DNA of 64,000 nucleotides, taken from contig JANXOP010000374.1 of the NCBI GenBank assembly GCA_025357755.1, positions 1-64,000 on the forward strand, given 5' to 3'. Positions 6,474 through 37,925 of this stretch are shown here, piece after piece. The notes under the pieces are model-generated. The model searched no databases and had not been told where the DNA came from. It worked only from the letters and a program-made list of their open reading frames with translations. A program made the translations under genes and the position numbers. Source of the DNA: Kofleriaceae bacterium (lineage in GTDB: Bacteria > Myxococcota_A > Polyangia > Haliangiales > Haliangiaceae). Every line of letters begins with the position of its first letter. Position 1 is the stretch's first letter.

Positions 6474-7375
6474 CGGTACGTCGCGAACTGGCTCGCCATG
6501 CGCGCGCCCTGGCCAGCGGTGAACTTGTTCATGCACGAGTCGTCGACGTAATCCATGAAGTTAGTGATCGGGTCGACACCCGGATACTTCGAGCCGGTGC
6601 ACGTATCGCGACCCGTCGGGCAACCGAACGCCGCGGTCTTTTCGGCCGCGGTGTCGCTGACGTAGTCACCCTTGGTCGCCGAGCAGCCTCCCTGGAACGT
6701 GTGATACAGGCCCATCCAGTGGCCGATTTCGTGGGTCGCCGTGTCGCCGAGGTTGTATGGCGCCGCGGAACCGCCTGGTAGAGAGTCGAACAGCACGACC
6801 ACGCCGTCGAGCTTCGGCGAGCCGGCATAGTCGGCCGGGAACGTCGCCCAGCCGAGGAGGCCCTGGCCCATGTTGTTCGTGTAGAGGTTGAGGTCCGCCG
6901 CGCCGCCGATACGGAGAGCGGTCTTCATGTTGGTTTCGGCGGAGGTGCTCGGAGTCGCCGAGTAGTACGAATCGTTGTTCGTGTCGTCGGTGCTCGCGAG
7001 GGTGAACGCGAAGCCCTGCGCGCCGTAGGCGGCATTGAGCACCAAAAGCTGATTCGTGATCTGCGTGGTCGTCACCGCGCCGCCGGTGCCGTTGCTCGCG
7101 TGGATGCGATGGACGTGGACCTTGATCGGAGCGACGGCGTACGCGACGTCCTCGGGCTGGTTCGCGAGGAACGCGGAGACCTCGTTCTCGATCTCGGCCT
7201 TGCGCGCTTCGCTCGGCTCGACGGTCTGGCAACCGCGTTGTGCGGTCGCGGAGCCGGGCTCCTGGACGCCACCTTGCTCGGTCGAGCTCAGCGTCGAGTT
7301 GTCGTCTTCACCATCGGCACAACCGACGATCGCGACGGCGAGCAGGGAACCGAGCAGGAGCTTGCGACTGGTCAT
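6470..7375 (-). CDS. M43-family (pappalysin/cytophagalysin-like) metallopeptidase lipoprotein
   Basis: 301 residues. The ATG at 7375 is chosen because it begins a lipoprotein signal, [20 protein letters not shown], with a lipobox at VGC. The zinc motif [15 protein letters not shown] (HExxHxxGxxH, near residue 217) and a downstream Met-turn ([14 protein letters not shown]) define the M43 fold. Upstream codons in frame add no signal-like sequence. Family members cleave secreted protein substrates; here the enzyme should be tethered to a membrane or released outside. It converges on the M28 aminopeptidase with a 4-nt stop overlap, so two extracellular peptidases lie tail to tail. Confidence 0.9.
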
Positions 7376-7510
7376 GGCTGGACGGTAGGTGTCGCACTCT
7401 GCGCTGGCGACATTTGCACCGCGCGAGGCGCTGCCGGCCGCTAACACGCATACGTTGTGCGCGACGGTGTGAACGTGTAGGCAGCGGTGAGAAATCCACC
7501 CGCACCGATG

Positions 7511-7522
7511 GGCGTTAACGCC
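7511..7522. promoter_or_regulatory. 12-bp perfect palindrome GGCGTTAACGCC
   Basis: It lies in the 214-bp gap upstream of the M43 gene and is flanked by AT-rich ACAATATTTCTAAT. It looks like an operator half-site pair, but no regulator is indicated. The inner CGTTAACGCC also occurs beside the palindromes at 44936 and 45134. Confidence 0.35.
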
Positions 7523-7589
7523 ACAATATTTCTAATCGTGACCGCGTAACTGAACGGAACTGCGCAACTGGTGCAGAGGTGTGAACGGC

Positions 7590-8414
7590 CTAAACAACAA
7601 CCGCTGACAGCGGCGCCGCCAGCGCATCCGAGTAGACGGTTCGCAGCTCGACGATCCCGGGATGCGGAACTCCCCGGCCTTCACGCGTGCCGAGCCCGAT
7701 CGTTGCCCCGATCGAAAATTTCTGATCGAGGTACATCGCGAGCTCCGGGCGCGACACCGCGCGCGGAGCGATCAAGTGGCGAATCCCGGTGAGCTCTGTC
7801 GCGGCGAGTTGCCACACGCGCTCCGCGGCCTCGTCGGCCCACAGCACGCAGCGCGATTCATCGGCGATCACGGTCATCGGCAAACCGCGCGCATGGCGAT
7901 ACCGCAACCAATCGAGGTGACCGTTGCGGCCCGTCGCCGAAGGTCCGATCCACGGCCCGCTGCGCACGACCAACGTGTTCGGGCGCGCGAGCATCAACTG
8001 CTCGGCCGCGACACGCGTGTGGCCGTACACGCTCAGCGGATCGGTCGGCGAGGTCTCGTCGTACGGACCCGTGTCGCCGCTGAACACGTGATCGCTCGAG
8101 CAGTAGACGATGCGGCACGCGGCCGGCGCGTGCGCGAGTAGCACGCGCATCGCTTCGACATTCACGGTCCAGGCAAACTCCGGAGACGTCTCGCAGTTCT
8201 CGACATCGCAGACGCCCGCGCACTGCACGATCAGCGCGGGCTGGATCCTGTCGAATAGCTCCGCGACTGCGGGCTCGTCATCGAGATCGATCGCGCCCGC
8301 AATCCCCGGTGGTGGGCGTCGCGTCTTCTCGTTGACGTAGGCGGCAATCCCGGGCCGCGCGCGAAAGAGCGAGTAGCCGAGCATCGAGCTCGCACCGAAT
8401 AGGATCGCCTTCAC
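7590..8414 (-). CDS. RmlD-like NAD(P)-dependent sugar-nucleotide reductase (extended SDR)
   Basis: 274 residues. The N-terminal Rossmann motif is GASSMLGYSL; CAGVCDVENCE, YCSSDHVFSGD and YGHTRVAAEQLML follow in the order seen in dTDP-4-dehydrorhamnose reductases. The usual active-site YxxxK is YxxxR here (YGHTR), a substitution that could weaken catalysis or mark a sub-family. No other rhamnose-pathway gene (rmlA, rmlB or rmlC) is nearby, so the substrate is uncertain. It lies 5 nt from the stop side of the upstream glutaredoxin gene, probably in one transcript with it. Confidence 0.8.
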   Translation of the reverse strand: MKAILFGASSMLGYSLFRARPGIAAYVNEKTRRPPPGIAGAIDLDDEPAVAELFDRIQPALIVQCAGVCDVENCETSPEFAWTVNVEAMRVLLAHAPAACRIVYCSSDHVFSGDTGPYDETSPTDPLSVYGHTRVAAEQLMLARPNTLVVRSGPWIGPSATGRNGHLDWLRYRHARGLPMTVIADESRCVLWADEAAERVWQLAATELTGIRHLIAPRAVSRPELAMYLDQKFSIGATIGLGTREGRGVPHPGIVELRTVYSDALAAPLSAVVV

Positions 8415-8419
8415 GCAGC

Positions 8420-8731
8420 CTACGCTTCGTCGTCAGAGTCTTCGGAAGCGGCAGAGTCGTCGGAGTCTGAGACAGGTGGCTCGGCCAGCATCTTCTCGAG
8501 CCGCCCCGATCGTTCGAGGTTGCGGAGCTCGGTGTACCCGCCGATCGATTGCCCGTTGATGAAGATCTGCGGCACCGTCGATTGGCCGGTCTTGACGCGC
8601 AGCCACGACCGCGTCTGATCATCGCCCGTACAATCGATCTCTTCGAACGCGAGCTTCTTGCCGTTCAACAAGCTCGTGGCCGCGGAGCAGTAGCCGCAGA
8701 GCTCGCGGGTGTAGATCTTGATCTCGGCCAT
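8420..8731 (-). CDS. Glutaredoxin (GrxC-like) with acidic C-terminal tail
   Basis: 103 residues, of which the first 80 form a standard glutaredoxin: IYTRELCGYCSAA with the CGYC dithiol, TVPQIFINGQSIGGYTEL with the cis-Pro and GG glutathione-binding elements. The CGYC variant of CPYC occurs in bacterial Grx. An unusual tail of about 20 residues rich in Asp, Glu and Ser (SDSDDSAASEDSDDEA) follows. It reduces disulfides or glutathionylated proteins in the cytoplasm. The following RmlD-like gene starts 5 nt past its stop. Confidence 0.92.
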   Translation of the reverse strand: MAEIKIYTRELCGYCSAATSLLNGKKLAFEEIDCTGDDQTRSWLRVKTGQSTVPQIFINGQSIGGYTELRNLERSGRLEKMLAEPPVSDSDDSAASEDSDDEA

Positions 8732-9279: not shown

Positions 9280-11007
9280 ATGCGCAGCTCCCTTGTCTTG
9301 CTTCTCGTGTTCGGTCGACTTGTCCTCTTCGCCGGGTGTGGCGACAACCGCGGCGCTCGCGCCACACCTGATGCGAGAGTCAACGCGGACGCGAAGGTCA
9401 CGGCCGATGCGAAGGTCTTCCTCGACGCGCCGCCGAATGTCGGCGACGGCATCGCCGAGGCGAAGGCGGCGGCCGATGGGACGGTGTCGCTCGCGATCAG
9501 CGGCGTCACGGTCACCTACGTCAAGCCGTTGGTCGTCGGTGCTTCGGCGACCAACGATCCGGCTGGCTTCACGATCCAGAGCGCCAAGACCGGGCCCGCA
9601 CTGTTCGTCGCGGTGGACCCCTCGACGCTGACGCCGGCGCTCGTCAAAGGCGACGTGGTCGACTTCACGATCACGACGCTCGCGACGGTCGGCGGTCAAA
9701 AGCGGGCCACCGCAATCTCGGGCGTGACGCGGACCGCGCAGGGCGCGGATGTCACCGCGCTCGCCACGGATGTCACGACCGCGACCGACCTCGTCACGGC
9801 GCTCTCGAGCTATGACAGCAAGGTCCTCAGCTTCACGGGTACGTTCGACGACGATGTCGGCACCAGTGGCGCGATGTTCTCGAAGTTCACGCTCGATACG
9901 ACCGGGATCACCGGCAACACCGCGCTGCAGTTTCGCATCCCGACGACGCTCGTCACCACGCAGACGATGACCGTCGCGTGCGTCGTCGCGGCGACCGCGG
10001 TCCCGATGGGTCGCTTCAATGCGATCGCCGAGATCCAGGCCTTCAGCGCCTCGGACTTCACGCTGACCTGCAAGCCGGTCGCGCGCAAAGCGGTCGCCGG
10101 CTCGGCGACGTCGCTCGCGGTCACGTTCTCGCGCACGATCGATCCGACCTCGATCACGGCCGATGCCTCGCAGTTCCATGTCACGGGGCTCACACTCTCG
10201 GCCCCCGTGGTGCTCGGCATGACCGTCACGCTGACCACGACCGCGCAGACCGCGCAGGCGCCGTACACGCTCACCGTGGATCCCGGGATCAAGGACGCCC
10301 AGATGAACGTCTCGACCGCGACCGCGACCACGACGTTCACCGGCTACGCCGCTCCGGCAAGCGTCAGGATCAACGAGCTCAACGCGAACATCACGGGCGG
10401 TTGCGACCTCGTCGAGCTGCGCGTGACGAACGCGGGTCAGCTCGGCAGCTTCAAGCTCGACGAGCGCGATGCCACGGTCTACACGTTCCCCGCTGACTTC
10501 CTCGTCGCCAAGAACGACTTCGTGCTCGTCCACTTCAACAGCGCGAGCGTGACGTGCAATCCGGGCGGCGCGACGACCGAGACCGCGATCAATGGCCAGC
10601 TCGCCGCGACCTACGCCGGCAATGTCGACACGGCCTACGACTACTGGATCGCCGACACCGGCATCACCTCGACCGACAACGTGATCACGCTGCTCGATCC
10701 CACCGGTGCGATCGCGGACGTGGTGTTCCTCGACGACGCGACCCCGAGCGAAGGCATGGCGACGGCAACGGCCGCTTCGGCCGCGGGCGCGGCGAACGCC
10801 TGGCTGCCTGCCCAAGCGACCTACACGAGCGCCGAGTTCTCGAACGCCGCCGTCAAGAACCTCGGCGGCACGGGGACCGCGCAGGCCGGCACCTCGATCC
10901 AGCGCGTCAACGACGTCGACACGAATGCGGCGGTGGACTGGACGACCGGCGCCGGTGTCGCCTCGACATGGGGCGCGCTCAACGCGGGCCAAGCCGTCAT
11001 CCCCTGA
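9280..11007 (+). CDS. Lipoprotein with Ig-like and lamin-tail (LTD) domains
   Basis: 575 residues. The signal ends at the lipobox LFAGC, followed by an Asp/Ala linker (ADAKVTADAKVFLDA). Residues 45-250 are beta-rich and resemble OB-fold/DUF5689-like exported domains. Residues about 265-360 look like a bacterial Ig-like domain (SLAVTFSRTIDPTSIT...). From about 365, VRINELNANITGGCDLVELR starts a lamin-tail domain. Such proteins are common on myxobacterial surfaces, where LTD modules are thought to bind partners or nucleic acid. It is probably cell-surface exposed; function unknown. Confidence 0.75.
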   Translation: MRSSLVLLLVFGRLVLFAGCGDNRGARATPDARVNADAKVTADAKVFLDAPPNVGDGIAEAKAAADGTVSLAISGVTVTYVKPLVVGASATNDPAGFTIQSAKTGPALFVAVDPSTLTPALVKGDVVDFTITTLATVGGQKRATAISGVTRTAQGADVTALATDVTTATDLVTALSSYDSKVLSFTGTFDDDVGTSGAMFSKFTLDTTGITGNTALQFRIPTTLVTTQTMTVACVVAATAVPMGRFNAIAEIQAFSASDFTLTCKPVARKAVAGSATSLAVTFSRTIDPTSITADASQFHVTGLTLSAPVVLGMTVTLTTTAQTAQAPYTLTVDPGIKDAQMNVSTATATTTFTGYAAPASVRINELNANITGGCDLVELRVTNAGQLGSFKLDERDATVYTFPADFLVAKNDFVLVHFNSASVTCNPGGATTETAINGQLAATYAGNVDTAYDYWIADTGITSTDNVITLLDPTGAIADVVFLDDATPSEGMATATAASAAGAANAWLPAQATYTSAEFSNAAVKNLGGTGTAQAGTSIQRVNDVDTNAAVDWTTGAGVASTWGALNAGQAVIP

Positions 11008-32332: not shown

Positions 32333-33451
32333 GTGGCATCCTTTGCCCGCGTGCGGATCGGTGACCTGCTAGTGGAGAAGGGCTGGGCGCGCGCGCGCGA
32401 TGTCGCTGCGGCGCTGTCCTCCTCCGACGTCGGGCGCCTATGCTCGGTCTTGATCGCGCGCGGGGTCCTCGAGTTCGATGTCGCGGCCCGCGCGCTCGGC
32501 GAACAGCGCGGCGTACCCGCGGCACTCGCTCGTCATCTCGAAGGCCGTGATATGGCTCTCGCCGCGAAGCTGCCGAGCGATTTCGGCCGCGCCTCGTGCG
32601 CGCTCCCGATCGGACGCACCACGGGTGGCGCGATGATCGTCGCCGCGCGCGATCCGGATGCAGCGCTCCGGACCTCGCTCGAACGGCTGGTCGGGTCGGT
32701 CACCCTCGTGATCACGCCCGCAACCCGGCTCGAACAGTTGGTAGCCGCGGCGTACGGCGAGGCGCCGCGCGACGAGTTCGATATCGATCTCGATTCGGCG
32801 GTCGATCTCGCGCCGCTCGAACCTCCGCCGCCCGATGTCGACATGCTCGATCCGGACAGCATTCGCATGGCGCTCTCGTCGCTCGATGACGTGCGGGTCG
32901 CAAAGGATCCGAGCCAGAGCGGGCTGATCCAGATGACCACGCTGTCTTCGTCGTCGAGCATCAAGCTGCAGCCGGCCGGGCGCGCGCTGCCACCCGCGGC
33001 GCCGAAGATCGCGGCGATCCGCGAGGCCCTCGAGCGCGCCGTGACGCGCGACGCGGCCAGCGACCTCGCGATGAGCTTCATCGCCGGGCGCTGGCTCGCC
33101 GGTGCGATCGTCGTGGTGCGGGAAGCGACCGCGATCGGCTATCGCGGGCATGGCATCGCGGATCTCGCGGAGCTCCATCTGCCGCTCCGCCTGCCCTCGA
33201 CGATCGCGCGTGCGATCGAGACCCAGCAGACCGAGAGCGTGATGCCGTCGAGCCCCGCGCAGGATCAGCTGGCGCGCGTGCTCCACGCGCAAGTCATCAC
33301 CGCGGCGCCCGTGATCGTTGCGAGTCAAGTGATCGCGGTCGTCGCGACCGGCGATTCGATCCATGGACCTGCCGATACCAACGCCGCGAGCGAGCTCGGT
33401 CAGCTCGCGCAGGCGCTCGGTGAAGCTTGGGATCGGATCCGTCGCGGATGA
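32333..33451 (+). CDS. GspE/MshE N-terminal-like domain protein
   Basis: 372 residues from GTG 32333; the GTG at 32351 (VRIGDLLVEKGW) is the more conventional start. Residues 5-150 resemble the MshEN/GspE-II N-terminal domain, which binds cyclic-di-GMP in secretion ATPases (IGDLLVEKGW, LASALG-like, LPIGRTTGGAMIVAARDPDA). A Pro/Asp linker follows, then about 150 C-terminal residues that may be a GAF-like sensor. There is no ATPase domain. A c-di-GMP-responsive adaptor is an inference. Confidence 0.68.
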   Translation: MASFARVRIGDLLVEKGWARARDVAAALSSSDVGRLCSVLIARGVLEFDVAARALGEQRGVPAALARHLEGRDMALAAKLPSDFGRASCALPIGRTTGGAMIVAARDPDAALRTSLERLVGSVTLVITPATRLEQLVAAAYGEAPRDEFDIDLDSAVDLAPLEPPPPDVDMLDPDSIRMALSSLDDVRVAKDPSQSGLIQMTTLSSSSSIKLQPAGRALPPAAPKIAAIREALERAVTRDAASDLAMSFIAGRWLAGAIVVVREATAIGYRGHGIADLAELHLPLRLPSTIARAIETQQTESVMPSSPAQDQLARVLHAQVITAAPVIVASQVIAVVATGDSIHGPADTNAASELGQLAQALGEAWDRIRRG

Positions 33452-34722
33452 CGCCGATGACCTCTGCGCACCGCACGTGGCGCACGAAGGTGTTCGTCTC
33501 GACCTGGCTGAGCTACATCGGCTTCTACTTCTGTCGTCGCCCTTTTTCCGCCGCGAAGTCCGCGCTGGGCGAACAGAATCACTGGGACGCACGCACGCTC
33601 GGCAACATCTACGCGGCGTATTTGATCGCGTACGCGCTCGGTCAGTTCCTCGCATCCGCGATGGGACCGCGCCTCGGCCCACGCAAGAACGTGCTGCTCG
33701 GCATGGGGCTCTCCGTGATCGTCACGCTCGCGATGGGGATCTCGATGTCGCCGTGGGTGATGGCCGGGTTGATCGCGGTCAACGGGCTCGCCCAAGCGAC
33801 CGGTTGGTCCGGCAACGTCGGCACGATGGCGAACTGGTTCCACAAGCACGAGCGCGGCAAGGTGATGGGCCTCTGGTCGACGAACTTCACCGTCGGCGCG
33901 ATCACCGCCGGGCTCGTGATGGGGCTCGTGCTCGGCGATAGCTCGACCGCGGATCAGCCGTGGCGATGGTGCTTCTTCACCGGCGCCGCCGTGCTGTCGA
34001 TCATCTGGATCCAGTTCTTCTTCCTGCAGCGCAGCAAGCCCGAAGACGTCGGGCTCGCCGGCATCGATGACCCGGTCACGACCATCGACGAATCCAAGGT
34101 GGTGGAGCCGGTCGGCATGTCGCGCGATCAGAAGATCAACCTCGGGCTCGTCGCGGGCTTCTACTTCTTCTCGAAGCTCGTGCGCTACGCGATCTGGTCG
34201 TGGGCCGCGTTCTTCCTCGCCGAGCAGTATCATCTGTCGGGCAAGGCGGCGAACACCTACGCGATCGCGTTCGACATCTGCGGCATGCCGGGCGTGTTCC
34301 TCACCGGCTACCTCTCCGACAAGTACTTCAAGAGCCGGCGTGCCGGCGTCGCGTTCGTGATGATGCTCGGCATGACCGGCGCGACCGCTCTCCTGATCGT
34401 GTTCGGCGGCTCCAGCGTGCCGGTGTTCGTCGCGCTGCTCGGCCTCGTGGGGTTCTTCCTCTACGGCCCCGATGCGCTGCTCTCCGGCGCAGGGGCGATG
34501 GACATCGGCAGCCGGCGCCAGGCGACCTTTGCGGCCGCGGTGATCTCCGGCTTCGGCAGTATGGGACCGATCGTCCAGGAGGTCATCGTGCCGCGGGTCT
34601 ACGACCAGAAGACCTCGGGCATGGGCCCGGTGTTCGCGATCTTGTTCATCTCCTCGGCCTGTGCGGCGGTGTTTTGCGCGATCCTGGTCTATCGAAATCG
34701 CAAAGGCGGCCGAGGCATCTAA
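33448..34722 (+). CDS. MFS transporter, organophosphate:phosphate antiporter (GlpT/UhpT-like) family
   Basis: 424 residues from ATG 33448, overlapping the previous TGA. Twelve hydrophobic segments; FYFCRRPFSAAKSALGE is the GlpT-family YYxRK/R-type start, and GLAQATGWSGNVGTMANWF is the family signature after segment four. The two halves are separated by a charged loop around residues 195-225. It would exchange a sugar phosphate or glycerol phosphate for phosphate across the inner membrane. Neighbours are signalling genes; the transport link is unclear. Confidence 0.9.
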   Translation: MTPMTSAHRTWRTKVFVSTWLSYIGFYFCRRPFSAAKSALGEQNHWDARTLGNIYAAYLIAYALGQFLASAMGPRLGPRKNVLLGMGLSVIVTLAMGISMSPWVMAGLIAVNGLAQATGWSGNVGTMANWFHKHERGKVMGLWSTNFTVGAITAGLVMGLVLGDSSTADQPWRWCFFTGAAVLSIIWIQFFFLQRSKPEDVGLAGIDDPVTTIDESKVVEPVGMSRDQKINLGLVAGFYFFSKLVRYAIWSWAAFFLAEQYHLSGKAANTYAIAFDICGMPGVFLTGYLSDKYFKSRRAGVAFVMMLGMTGATALLIVFGGSSVPVFVALLGLVGFFLYGPDALLSGAGAMDIGSRRQATFAAAVISGFGSMGPIVQEVIVPRVYDQKTSGMGPVFAILFISSACAAVFCAILVYRNRKGGRGI

Positions 34723-35651
34723 TGGCCATCCTGATCGTCCATCCAGACCGCAAGACCCAGCGCATCGTGCAGCGCATCCTCGGCGTGACGGGCTATCGCA
34801 TCGAAGTGGCCGACGATCTCGAGCAGGGCATCCGCTTGCTCCAGCACATCTCGCCGCGCCTGGTCGTGGTCGATGGCTCGGCCCTGACCTCGCCATTCGC
34901 CGCACCGTTCTTCGCGGCCGTGCGCGCCAAGCGTGCCGAGGCCTGCATGATGTTGCTCGGTGCGAATACGCTCGAGCAGATTCCCCACATCCTCGAGCTC
35001 GGCGCGATCACGAACCTGCTCGTGCATCCGATGCCCGTGCTCGCCGAAGAGCTCACGATCACCGCGCACAAGCTCGTGCGCAACGACCTGTTCGGCGCCG
35101 AGAAGTACCTCCTGTGGGGCACGCAGCTCCACGAGATCGACATCACGCGATCGACGCAACGCCCGAAGATCGTGGCCGACCTCTCGGAAGCAGTGCGCGC
35201 GCGCGGCCAGAGCGCGCGCGTCGCCTCGATGGCCATGCTCGTCGCCGACGAGCTGATCTCGAATGCCGTGCACAACGCGCCGTGCGATGCCGACGGCAAC
35301 CACTATCGCAGCGAGGTCGCGCGCGATACCGACCTCGAGCTCGATGCGCGCCACCAAGTCCGGTTACGCTGGGGCTGCGATGCGCGGTACGTTGCGATCG
35401 AGGTCAACGACCACTTCGGGAGCCTCGATCGCAACACGATCCTGCGCTCGCTCGCAAAACAAGATGTCCGCGAAGCCGGTGGTGGAGCCGGCATGGGAGT
35501 CGCGTTGAGTTACCGAAGCTGTGATCACCTCGTGTTCAATCTGGCTCCCGGGAAGAGGACGGAGATCATCGCGTTGATCGACGTGCGCTATAGTCCGTCC
35601 GAACGCATCCCTGCTTCGTCCTTCAACGTCTTCGTGGAGAGCTCGACGTGA
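34722..35651 (+). CDS. Receiver-like domain fused to GHKL (HATPase) domain
   Basis: 309 residues from ATG 34722, overlapping the transporter's TAA (TAATG). The N-terminal 120 residues are receiver-like (ILIVHPDRKTQRIVQRILG, Asp in LVVVDGSALT). The C-terminal part is an HATPase of anti-sigma kinase type: N-box VADELISNAVHNAP, G1-like IEVNDHFGSLD, G2-like AGGGAGMGVALSYRS. There is no histidine phosphoacceptor helix, so it is not a sensor kinase. Adjacent STAS protein suggests an RsbW/SpoIIAB-like partner switch. Confidence 0.8.
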   Translation: MAILIVHPDRKTQRIVQRILGVTGYRIEVADDLEQGIRLLQHISPRLVVVDGSALTSPFAAPFFAAVRAKRAEACMMLLGANTLEQIPHILELGAITNLLVHPMPVLAEELTITAHKLVRNDLFGAEKYLLWGTQLHEIDITRSTQRPKIVADLSEAVRARGQSARVASMAMLVADELISNAVHNAPCDADGNHYRSEVARDTDLELDARHQVRLRWGCDARYVAIEVNDHFGSLDRNTILRSLAKQDVREAGGGAGMGVALSYRSCDHLVFNLAPGKRTEIIALIDVRYSPSERIPASSFNVFVESST

Positions 35652-36148
35652 CCGACATCCGCGGCCGCCTACATATCGATCCCGGTGCGAACGGCACCTG
35701 GGTACTCGCCGGCTCGATCGACGAGACGTCGCAGCTCGGAGAGCTCCTCGCGCGTGCCCAGCAGGGTCGGCTCATGCTCGATCTCGGCGGCGTGCAGTTC
35801 ATCAACTCGCTCGGCGTGCGTGACTGGATCCGCATGCAGACCGAGGCCACCAAGCAGCACCTCGCGATCGACCTCCTCCGGGTCTCCGAGCCGATCATCC
35901 ATCAGTTCAACATGATCATCGCGACGCGCGGGAGCTCGCACGTCGCGTCGTTCTACGCGCCCTACGCGTGCGATGCCTGCGGCCGCGAGGAGTCGCTGCT
36001 GATCGATGCGGATGTCCACGCCGCGTCGCTGGCGCAGCTGGTCCCCCCCACCCAGACCTGCCCGGAATGCGCGGCGCAGATGGCCTTCAATGATTTCCCC
36101 GAGCGCTATTTTTCGTTCCTCGTTCCAGATTCGTCCCGACCAGGCTAA
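35648..36148 (+). CDS. STAS-domain anti-anti-sigma-like protein with C-terminal zinc ribbon
   Basis: 166 residues from GTG 35648, overlapping the HATPase gene's TGA. Residues 1-95 are STAS-like; LDLGGVQFINSLGVRDWI aligns with the phosphorylatable Ser strand-helix of SpoIIAA/RsbV (Ser in FINS). Residues 105-150 hold CDACGRE and CPECAAQM, a probable zinc ribbon not usual in anti-anti-sigma factors. Its HATPase neighbour could phosphorylate it. Confidence 0.78.
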   Translation: MTDIRGRLHIDPGANGTWVLAGSIDETSQLGELLARAQQGRLMLDLGGVQFINSLGVRDWIRMQTEATKQHLAIDLLRVSEPIIHQFNMIIATRGSSHVASFYAPYACDACGREESLLIDADVHAASLAQLVPPTQTCPECAAQMAFNDFPERYFSFLVPDSSRPG

Positions 36149-36157
36149 AAGCGGCGG

Positions 36158-36811
36158 GTGCTCGAACACTTCGCCACGTTCGTCCAGGACTTCGTCGCCC
36201 GGGTCGGCTATCCGGGTCTGTTCCTGCTGATCACGCTCGAGAGTACGCTGGTGCCGATTCCCTCGGAATTGGTCATGCCGTTCGCGGGGGTGCTCGCGTC
36301 GCACGGCACGTTCTCGCTGCCCGTGATCTTGATCATCAACACGACCGCCGCGCTGCTCGGCTCGGGCATCAGCTACTGGATCGGAGCCGCTGGCGGCAAG
36401 CCGTTGCTCCTCAAGTACGGCAAGTTCGCACTGATCCGGAAGCACGACATCGAGATGACCGAGCGGTACTTTGCCAACCACGGCAAGACCACGATCCTGG
36501 TCGCCCGGTTCCTTCCCATCATCCGTCACATCATCTCGGTGCCCGCCGGCATCGCGCGCATGCCGCTCGTGCCGTTCTTCACGCAGACATTCATCGGTTC
36601 GACGATCTGGGGGAGCGTCCTAATTCTTCTCGGGTATCACTTCGGCGACGCGTTTCTCGAGACTGCCAAGCGGGTGAAGCACGTCGACCTGATCATCGGC
36701 GTGGTCATCCTCGCCGTGCTATTAGCCCTCGCAATCCGATTCGTGGTACGTCGCCGACGAGAGCCGTCGGCGCAGGCCGGTCAGCAAGACGAATCCAAGC
36801 TCGCAGACTGA
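36158..36811 (+). CDS. DedA/VTT-family membrane protein
   Basis: 217 residues from GTG 36158. The family motifs are LESTLVPIPSELVMPFAG (E-x(3)-P-x-P-x-E), a central GSGISYWIGAAGGKPLL and ARFLPIIRHIISVPAGIARM, with the G-x-x-R/FLPxxRH helical hairpin of VTT proteins. DedA proteins are phospholipid scramblase/flippase-like and recycle undecaprenyl phosphate or phosphatidylethanolamine. The C-terminal tail is basic then acidic. It follows the STAS gene by 9 bp. Confidence 0.92.
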   Translation: MLEHFATFVQDFVARVGYPGLFLLITLESTLVPIPSELVMPFAGVLASHGTFSLPVILIINTTAALLGSGISYWIGAAGGKPLLLKYGKFALIRKHDIEMTERYFANHGKTTILVARFLPIIRHIISVPAGIARMPLVPFFTQTFIGSTIWGSVLILLGYHFGDAFLETAKRVKHVDLIIGVVILAVLLALAIRFVVRRRREPSAQAGQQDESKLAD

Positions 36812-36812
36812 C

Positions 36813-37925
36813 GTGTCTACCCACGTGTCGTACCCCAGTCGTCCTCCCACCGCCCCCCCGCAGCCCTCCCCAGCTATGGCCGCGCATGCGTCCGAGAGCG
36901 TGCTAGCTTCAGCGGCAATGGGGTTGTCGTCGGCCCAAGCACAAGCGTTCGCAACGCGCGTGCTCGACCGTCACGAAACCGAGCTCGTCGAGCAGGCCCT
37001 GGGTGCCGTGGCTGCCGAGTCGCCGACCGACGCGGCGATCCTGCGGACCATGATCGACGAGCTGCGGTCGACCTCGGAGTTGCTCGAGCGCCAGCGACCG
37101 CTCCGCGCGCCCACCGCACTCGCCGGCGAAGCCCGCGACGAGACCACGCTGATCGACCACCTCTGTACGATCGACGGCCTCTCCGGCGACCTGTCGTTGC
37201 CGCTCAAGGCGACGCTGTCGCGGACGCACCTGCTCACCAAGATCAACTTCCTGCGTGGCTTCGTGAAGGCCACCGGCGCGCTCCATCACATCCCGAGTGC
37301 GGTCCAGATCACGCACGACCTCCGCGAAGAGGTCGCGCAATCGATCTACACGCTGCTCGCGGAGGAGCTCTTGCTCGCGCTCCTGCGCAAGCCCGATGTC
37401 ACGCGCCGCACCAAGCAGCGCGCCGCGGATCAGTTGATCACCATCTGGGACGATGCCGCGCTCGAGATCGACGACTTCGCGCCGCTGCTCGAATCGGCAT
37501 GGCACGCGCGCAACCGGATCAACAGCGCCTACGGCACGCTGCTCGGCGCGACCGAGACGTTCCGCTTGGTCCGCGAAGACTGCAGCCCCGAGGTCCTCGA
37601 TTTCTTCGGCCGCGATGGCATGAGCATCGACGAAGCGTCGGCGTTCGAGGAGTTCCTGTTCAACATGACGCACGAGGAGCTCGCCACGCTCCGTCGCGCG
37701 ATGCAGCAGCAGCACATCGGAGCCGCGAGCCCCGCGTGGGCCGCCGAAGTGCTGGGTCGTCAGATCGAAGAGCTCGAGCACTCGCACGAGATCGATCCCA
37801 TGGCGCTCTATCGCAGCTACCAGCGTCGCCAGCTCGCCGCCGACTTCCGCCTGATGTCGGGAGCGCCGGGGCCTCGCCGTACGGCCGAGGGCTACTTGAT
37901 GGTCTATCTGTTAGACCAGCAGTAG
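36813..37925 (+). CDS. Cytoplasmic helical protein, unknown function
   Basis: 370 residues from the GTG at 36813, one base after the DedA stop; the ATGs at 36876 and 36918 are alternatives because the first 20 residues are a Pro/Ser stretch. The rest is helical and charged, with Leu/Glu/Arg repeats (EEVAQSIYTLLAEELLLALL). No signal peptide, membrane segment or catalytic motif is seen. No family recognised. Confidence 0.65.
   Translation: MSTHVSYPSRPPTAPPQPSPAMAAHASESVLASAAMGLSSAQAQAFATRVLDRHETELVEQALGAVAAESPTDAAILRTMIDELRSTSELLERQRPLRAPTALAGEARDETTLIDHLCTIDGLSGDLSLPLKATLSRTHLLTKINFLRGFVKATGALHHIPSAVQITHDLREEVAQSIYTLLAEELLLALLRKPDVTRRTKQRAADQLITIWDDAALEIDDFAPLLESAWHARNRINSAYGTLLGATETFRLVREDCSPEVLDFFGRDGMSIDEASAFEEFLFNMTHEELATLRRAMQQQHIGAASPAWAAEVLGRQIEELEHSHEIDPMALYRSYQRRQLAADFRLMSGAPGPRRTAEGYLMVYLLDQQ

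Follow-up and report, generated by a model that had tools for sequence, protein, structure and literature searches.

The window analyzed here is a 64,000-nucleotide stretch of a Kofleriaceae bacterium genome (contig JANXOP010000374.1, positions 1 to 64,000). Two of its genes, P0001 and P0002, quite probably encode a serine kinase of the RsbW/SpoIIAB type and the STAS-domain protein that it would phosphorylate on Ser54, with a pseudo-receiver on the kinase, a zinc-ribbon-like part on the substrate, a SpoIIE-type PP2C phosphatase acting in trans, and a target other than a sigma factor. Domains, residue conservation, pairing, co-occurrence, and phosphatase linkage were computed; from these we infer the direction of the kinase, the phosphosite, the zinc, the target, and the role of the receiver. 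By analogy, the pair is best read as a variant of partner switching, with PP2C phosphatases near the family in many Myxococcota genomes, and it is probably one copy of a little-described phosphorylation switch that has been duplicated many times in some Myxococcota.

Domains and conserved residues of the pair

P0001 (34722-35651) and P0002 (35648-36148) lie on the forward strand and meet in a GTGA junction (35648-35651), where the GTG start of P0002 at 35648 overlaps the TGA stop of P0001 at 35649-35651. A previous interpretation made from the letters alone (the sequence-only reading) had described this overlap, a receiver-like domain joined to an RsbW-like ATPase, and a STAS protein that bears a CxxC...CxxC ribbon, and direct reading of both open reading frames found all of them in place. 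Domain matches and folds likewise support its view that each protein carries a domain beyond its RsbW-like ATPase or anti-anti-sigma-like core. Pfam and NCBIfam see both proteins only under their cut-offs. Structure prediction confirmed the HATPase, receiver-like, and STAS folds; the ribbon is not among these three.

The kinase part of P0001 is a Bergerat HATPase of the RsbW/SpoIIAB type (residues 133-291, 35118-35594). In the predicted structure (mean pLDDT 78.1), residues 133 to 289 align with SpoIIAB (1th8_A) over 131 residues at 2.8 Å (Z 12.5). Because its HATPase_c_2 score falls under the curated cut-off (22.8 versus 27.4 bits), P0001 is described here as a divergent relative of the RsbW/SpoIIAB kinases and is not filed as a member of that family; even at an E value of 0.01, HATPase_c_2 matches only 14 of 33 diverse kinase members. 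The receiver-HATPase architecture recurs in 56 nonredundant homologs, 62 in a later set, and is therefore far beyond chance.

The predicted catalytic and ATP-site residues are invariant or nearly so across the 62 kinase sequences. Within the N box (residues 176-187, DELISNAVHNAP, 35247-35282), E177 (35250-35252), A186, and P187 are present in all 62 and N181 (35262-35264) in 61. The G1 motif (residues 230-235, D-H-F-G-S-L, 35409-35426; D-x-F-G-x-L in the family) has D230, G233, and L235 in 62/62 and F232 in 58/62, while G257 and G259 of the G2 motif (residues 254-259, GGAGMG, 35481-35498) and T280 are invariant. The N-box glutamate acts as the general base in such kinases, and their usual G1 motif is D-x-G-x-G. 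The divergent G1 of P0001 could alter catalysis, and a shortened relative (locus L118) lacks the G1 aspartate altogether; both would suit a P0001 that has no kinase activity and serves only as a nucleotide-dependent scaffold for P0002. We consider such a scaffold very unlikely, since the general-base glutamate and all nucleotide residues are retained as listed and none of the single or first modules counted lacks the partner serine. At L118 (8382-8990) and L124 (8071-8673), both in genomes of family f41, the position that a receiver-HATPase normally takes in the PP2C cluster is occupied by a short HATPase without a receiver.

P0002 begins with a STAS domain (residues 1-100, 35648-35947), for which all curated models again score under their cut-offs (STAS_2, 19.7 versus 29.2 bits; STAS, 12.1 versus 22.6; ant_ant_sig, 16.2 versus 53.45). 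The best Foldseek matches of its predicted structure (mean pLDDT 88.8) are SpoIIAA chains (1tid_D, E value of 4.5e-4), followed by RsbV (6m36). A second structural comparison ranked TM1442 (1vc1) best with a Z score of 8.9, and SLC26-type STAS domains scored alike, so the STAS fold does not settle the function of P0002.

Ser54 (FINS-LG, 35807-35809) sits at what we take to be the position of the phosphorylated serine of SpoIIAA and RsbV. Among 73 nonredundant STAS-ribbon modules, a count that excludes L124, this serine is found in 60/60 single or first modules and in 0/13 second modules; of these 13, 12 come second in a tandem protein, and the remaining one, also of the second type, lies in a protein cut by a contig end. 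The L124 member has threonine at this position. The serine and the ATP-binding residues, on whose conservation in homologs the sequence-only reading had staked its proposal, are both retained.

The zinc-ribbon-like part of P0002 comprises Cys108, Cys111, Cys138, and Cys141 (CDAC...CPEC, 35969-36070). No curated ribbon family of Pfam or NCBIfam scores over its cut-off on P0002 (Zn_ribbon_8, 12.0 versus 34.4 bits). The four cysteines are invariant in the 12-member clade of the window and were present in all of the first 40 modules sampled, which had suggested an essential, metal-site feature; this did not hold among the 73 modules of the larger set. There, 52 modules have two CxxC knuckles, 13 have one CxxC and a wider second knuckle, one has a CxxC only, and seven have none, so that under the strict rule two cysteine knuckles are found in 65/73. 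Counting by alignment column gave all four cysteines in 57/73, but this figure partly reflects misalignment of the second knuckle, and the knuckle count is preferred. The seven modules without CxxC (at L094, L100 to L103, L116, and L120) keep the serine and the rest of the domain, and we therefore regard the ribbon as not essential to the predicted switch. By sequence, the Ser54 position is better conserved than the ribbon cysteines.

The N-terminal part of P0001 is receiver-like (residues 1-121, 34722-35084; Response_reg, 17.8 bits versus a cut-off of 30.2). Its model aligns with receivers at Z scores of about 13, including Spo0F (6ifh, Z 13.0, 2.2 Å). Of the response-regulator set of an acidic pair, a phospho-accepting Asp, a Thr or Ser, and a Lys, only the Asp (D51) is present: H7-P8 replaces the acidic pair, L79 stands at the Thr/Ser position, and H102 occupies the switch-Lys position. 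When homologs were aligned with canonical receivers from the same loci, an acid was found in the first pocket column in 6/56 and in the second in 2 to 4/56, counts that rest on the eight commonest letters per column. D51 is kept in 41/56 and, in the later nonredundant set, 45/62, and the switch Lys in 9/62. Because the acidic pair is replaced or rare and the switch Lys is scarce, we call this part a pseudo-receiver, its acidic pocket gone in nearly all members of the family.

These residues bear on the proposal of the sequence-only reading that phospho-input and metal or redox input could meet in this pair. In its two-component form, a histidine kinase would phosphorylate D51 to gate the HATPase, and the ribbon would add the second input. 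The retention of D51 in most homologs and the invariant cysteines of the window's clade agree with this, as does LvrC of Leptospira, which is described as gated in this way through a canonical receiver (PMC13269768). Against it stand the missing acidic pocket, the rare switch Lys, the receiver-less HATPases in two genomes with the same cluster (L118 and L124), and the loss of ribbon cysteines in 7/73 modules that keep the serine. Given these residues, phospho-input is not supported and metal or redox input is weakened, and we judge the two-component output distinctly improbable.

Co-occurrence, pairing, and phosphatase linkage

The distribution of both families was determined in the same 282 genomes of the phylum with profile A3, built from 21 STAS-ribbon modules (E value of 1e-5), and profile A4, built from 33 kinases (E value of 1e-10). 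STAS-ribbon proteins were found in 39 genomes and kinases in 35, all 35 of which are among the 39. The fusion that the sequence-only reading had proposed to compare across Myxococcota belongs to a conserved family. The Fisher p value of this co-occurrence, 1.3e-40, overstates independence because the sample is phylogenetically structured by shared ancestry. Presence and absence nonetheless shift together within families: among the f31 genomes listed, seven have both families and six have neither, and in f33 three genomes have both and the other listed genomes neither. The four STAS-only genomes are G123, G166, G204, and G232. Two of them are f41 genomes whose clusters hold the short receiver-less HATPase (L118 and L124), and in G232 the contig breaks off shortly past the PP2C gene; for G123, also f41, no explanation was found.

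The two families are also linked in position and in descent. A STAS-ribbon gene lies within 3 kb of 16 of 58 kinase places (0.23 expected) and within 10 kb of 26. Family-tree distances over 28 linked pairs correlate (r = 0.755), and when partners were re-paired only within the three multi-pair genomes, which keeps species history, 45 of 4,320 arrangements equaled or beat this value. The gene orders of the low-GC loci L115 to L117 and L124 were not counted, as gene calling fails there; L124 was read from its list of open reading frames. A first single-sequence search (68/282 genomes, E value of 0.001) was set aside since many of its weaker hits cover nothing but the receiver part. Plasmid searches gave no match for P0001 at an E value of 1e-10 or for P0002 at 1e-3.

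In a GTDB scan, 11 close relatives were found at 65 to 78% identity. Both genes are adjacent in all 11, which rules out chance or an annotation artifact as the source of the pair. The stop and start overlap by 1 to 4 nucleotides in eight of them, and the genes are 0, 2, and 24 nucleotides apart in the other three. The genome of the window itself encodes at least 10 receiver-HATPases and at least 11 STAS-ribbon proteins. Both families occur together at C272 (the contig of the window), C217, C153, C184, and C236. A Pfam STAS search of this genome matched two other places and neither P0002 nor any paralog.

A SpoIIE-type PP2C is the expected third component. In 25/39 genomes, at least one of the matches listed is no more than 10 kb away from a STAS-ribbon or kinase place; density predicts about 1.3. 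Where several kilobases separate the two genes, a cluster often fills the space between them, and at several loci its order was read directly: a STAS-ribbon protein that by eye has a membrane anchor comes first, followed at some loci by a PAS protein, then by a HAMP-SpoIIE PP2C (PF07228; in L108, 5580-7163, 128.8 bits), a TPR protein, a PhnD-like binding protein, and last the receiver-HATPase. Giant proteins that end in PP2C adjoin the pair in L062, L057, and L064. Those of L062 (933-6086) and L057 (1-4851) begin with a Hanks kinase.

Several observations weigh against the kinase-substrate-phosphatase reading. No PP2C is found in the window or in the operon of the pair, and of the 12 PP2C matches in its genome, only C184 among the own-genome loci has one nearby. 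Fourteen of the 39 genomes, including all eight of f38, have no listed PP2C within 10 kb, and 32 of the 58 kinase places have no STAS-ribbon gene within that distance. The profile searches behind these counts scored the best 14 and the best 8 candidates per genome, and the Fisher value is inflated as described. The STAS motif of P0002, finally, is N-S; the usual switch motif is D-S.

The co-inheritance of a kinase, a STAS protein, and a phosphatase that standard models miss is of interest because kinases are very numerous in Myxococcota (at least 154 Pkinase matches in the genome of the window) and few rules of their wiring have been explained. The family makes part of this wiring testable. 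It also provides a natural test case for pseudo-receivers and for the insulation of paralogous partner switches, with the Ser-less second modules as a ready control.

Gene neighborhood, outputs, and the proposed switch

The pair lies in a same-strand run that comprises genes for a TerB-like protein (31155), an unknown protein (31778), an MshEN-type protein, a major facilitator superfamily (MFS) transporter, P0001, P0002, a DedA-family protein, and a conserved unknown protein. The MshEN-type, c-di-GMP-binding-like protein (32333-33451; PF05157, 25.5 bits versus a cut-off of 23.1) overlaps the MFS gene, and the gene is kept in relatives: it is upstream of the pair in 8/11, and the contigs of the other three (L002, L003, and L004) begin too near. 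The GlpT/PgtP-like MFS transporter (33427-34722; PF07690, 134.5 bits; TIGR00881, 199.3 bits, under its cut-off) shares one base with P0001 (TAATG, 34720-34724). In L009 it was not found beside the pair, and in L008 and L011 a divergent, opposite-strand gene takes its place. Nine nucleotides 3' of P0002 lies the UptA-like DedA gene (36158-36811; VTT_dom, 78.4 bits; UptA model, 137 bits versus a cut-off of 250), which is 3' of the pair in 9/11 relatives. The neighbors thus vary more than the pair. The conserved unknown protein (36813-37925), which matches no Pfam family, ends the collinear run; full-length copies in relatives are 77 to 82% identical to it. A 57% identical copy at L059 (4521-5717) adjoins a different receiver-HATPase paralog. 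Receiver-HATPase/STAS-ribbon pairs at L054 and L056 lie close to a response regulator gene and to one that, by eye, resembles PilT.

A linked sigma factor, which the sequence-only reading had suggested looking for, was sought as a match to Sigma70_r2. None of the 55 own-genome matches is on C272, and C361 is the only paralog locus with a match within 3 kb. P0001 could still be an anti-sigma factor whose sigma factor is unlinked and among those 55; its best structural match, LvrC (9qih, Foldseek E value of 5.9e-12), is described as a Rec-regulated putative anti-sigma factor (PMC13269768). The sigma factor of LvrC is itself not known. Together with the lack of linkage and the fusions of STAS-ribbon modules to kinase, PilZ, FIST, membrane, or PDZ parts, this makes an anti-sigma role unlikely. 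At L051, a receiver-PilZ-STAS-ribbon fusion (7307-8464) has a convergent sigma-70-family gene (10383-10976, ECF-like by eye) within 3 kb.

The fusions themselves are varied. STAS-ribbon modules are joined to a Hanks kinase with a membrane segment, to a receiver and PilZ, to PDZ-like C termini, and to FIST; receiver-HATPases also occur with membrane and PEGA parts. Because both modules have such diverse partners, their architectures argue for diverse non-sigma outputs. Two receiver-HATPase paralogs (L043, 6782-8923; L073, 5850-8087) have a C-terminal extension that looks membrane anchored and PEGA-like, the PEGA part being matched by Pfam in L043. A Ser/Thr kinase gene is often found nearby, but such proximity was discounted as evidence, and only direct fusions were used, because the Pkinase matches counted above crowd an 8.6-Mb genome.

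By analogy with RsbW-RsbV-RsbU, the proposed switch would work as follows. P0001 would bind ATP and P0002 and phosphorylate Ser54 of its translationally coupled partner, and a SpoIIE-type PP2C encoded elsewhere in the cell would remove the phosphate in trans. The phosphorylation state of P0002 would decide whether it is bound to P0001 or to a downstream target, with either the free or the phosphorylated form engaging the target. The degenerate receiver is probably a docking or dimerization element, or an address that separates paralogous pairs, rather than a phospho-Asp switch, and the ribbon is predicted to bind zinc structurally and to aid recognition. A target other than a sigma factor is probable, given the Hanks, PilZ, FIST, PDZ-like, and membrane fusions and the transporter, DedA, and c-di-GMP-binding-like genes of the operon. 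The target could conceivably lie in the envelope, as the transporter and DedA neighbors faintly hint.

A broader and more tentative idea, which we hold as possible though somewhat doubtful, is that the family forms a signaling currency outside sigma control, in which the STAS-ribbon serves as a movable docking module that is phosphorylated on serine and appended to Hanks kinases or to PilZ, FIST, PDZ, or membrane proteins, and each copy has a dedicated pseudo-receiver kinase to read it. On this view, the degenerate receiver and the ribbon would act as insulation codes, and the Ser-less second modules would be nonswitchable docking domains. If so, such codes would let the 10 or more kinases and 11 or more STAS-ribbon proteins of one cell avoid cross-talk.

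Comparison with known partner switches

HsbR, SypE, and CrsR each combine a receiver with an RsbW-like kinase directed at a STAS protein, and the PP2C belongs to the same polypeptide. The receiver and RsbW-like kinase are the likeness to P0001; in the family described here, the PP2C has a gene to itself or is built into a giant protein. SiaB and SiaC of Pseudomonas aeruginosa resemble P0001 and P0002 in that a kinase is paired with a STAS-like protein and the target is not a sigma factor, and SiaC is among the structural matches of P0002 (6kko_C, Z 6.2; 6k4f, Z 5.8). They differ in belonging to other kinase and STAS families, which are not known to have a receiver or ribbon.

LvrC of Leptospira, the top structural match of P0001, also has an N-terminal Rec joined to a Bergerat domain. 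Its alignment (9qih_B, Z 13.7, 256 residues) has a root mean square deviation of 19.0 Å, as the domains match and their relative placement in the model differs; the kinase sequence profile does not match LvrC. The LvrC Rec is canonical and phosphorylated by LvrB, whereas that of P0001 is degenerate, and the available part of the LvrC account mentions no STAS-ribbon partner (PMC13269768). Because LvrC already has this architecture (PMC13269768), a Rec-HATPase fusion as such is not new, and the claim of the sequence-only reading that the usual partner switch has neither extra domain is only partly right, failing for the receiver. Sorangium cellulosum has 71 COG1366 proteins, some of which are fused to eukaryotic-like kinases as paralogs here are, and SpoIIE-like phosphatases have been reported; this myxobacterial phosphatome account, in its available part, mentions no ribbon and no receiver-HATPase partner (PMC2887360). 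Literature searches that combined zinc-ribbon or zinc-finger STAS with partner switching, anti-anti-sigma, or Myxococcota found no paper.

The closest models are RsbW/RsbV/RsbU and SpoIIAB/SpoIIAA/SpoIIE of Bacillus. Unlike these, the present kinase has an extra receiver-like domain and a D-x-F-G-x-L G1 motif, the STAS protein has a ribbon and an N-S motif, no sigma factor is linked, and this operon has no PP2C. Like them, the pair combines a HATPase kinase with a STAS partner that has a serine at the switch position, and a SpoIIE-type PP2C is near in many relatives; SpoIIAB is among the best structural matches of P0001, as SpoIIAA and RsbV are for P0002. We conclude that the pair is real, conserved, and mechanistically well anchored as a variant of the partner switch.

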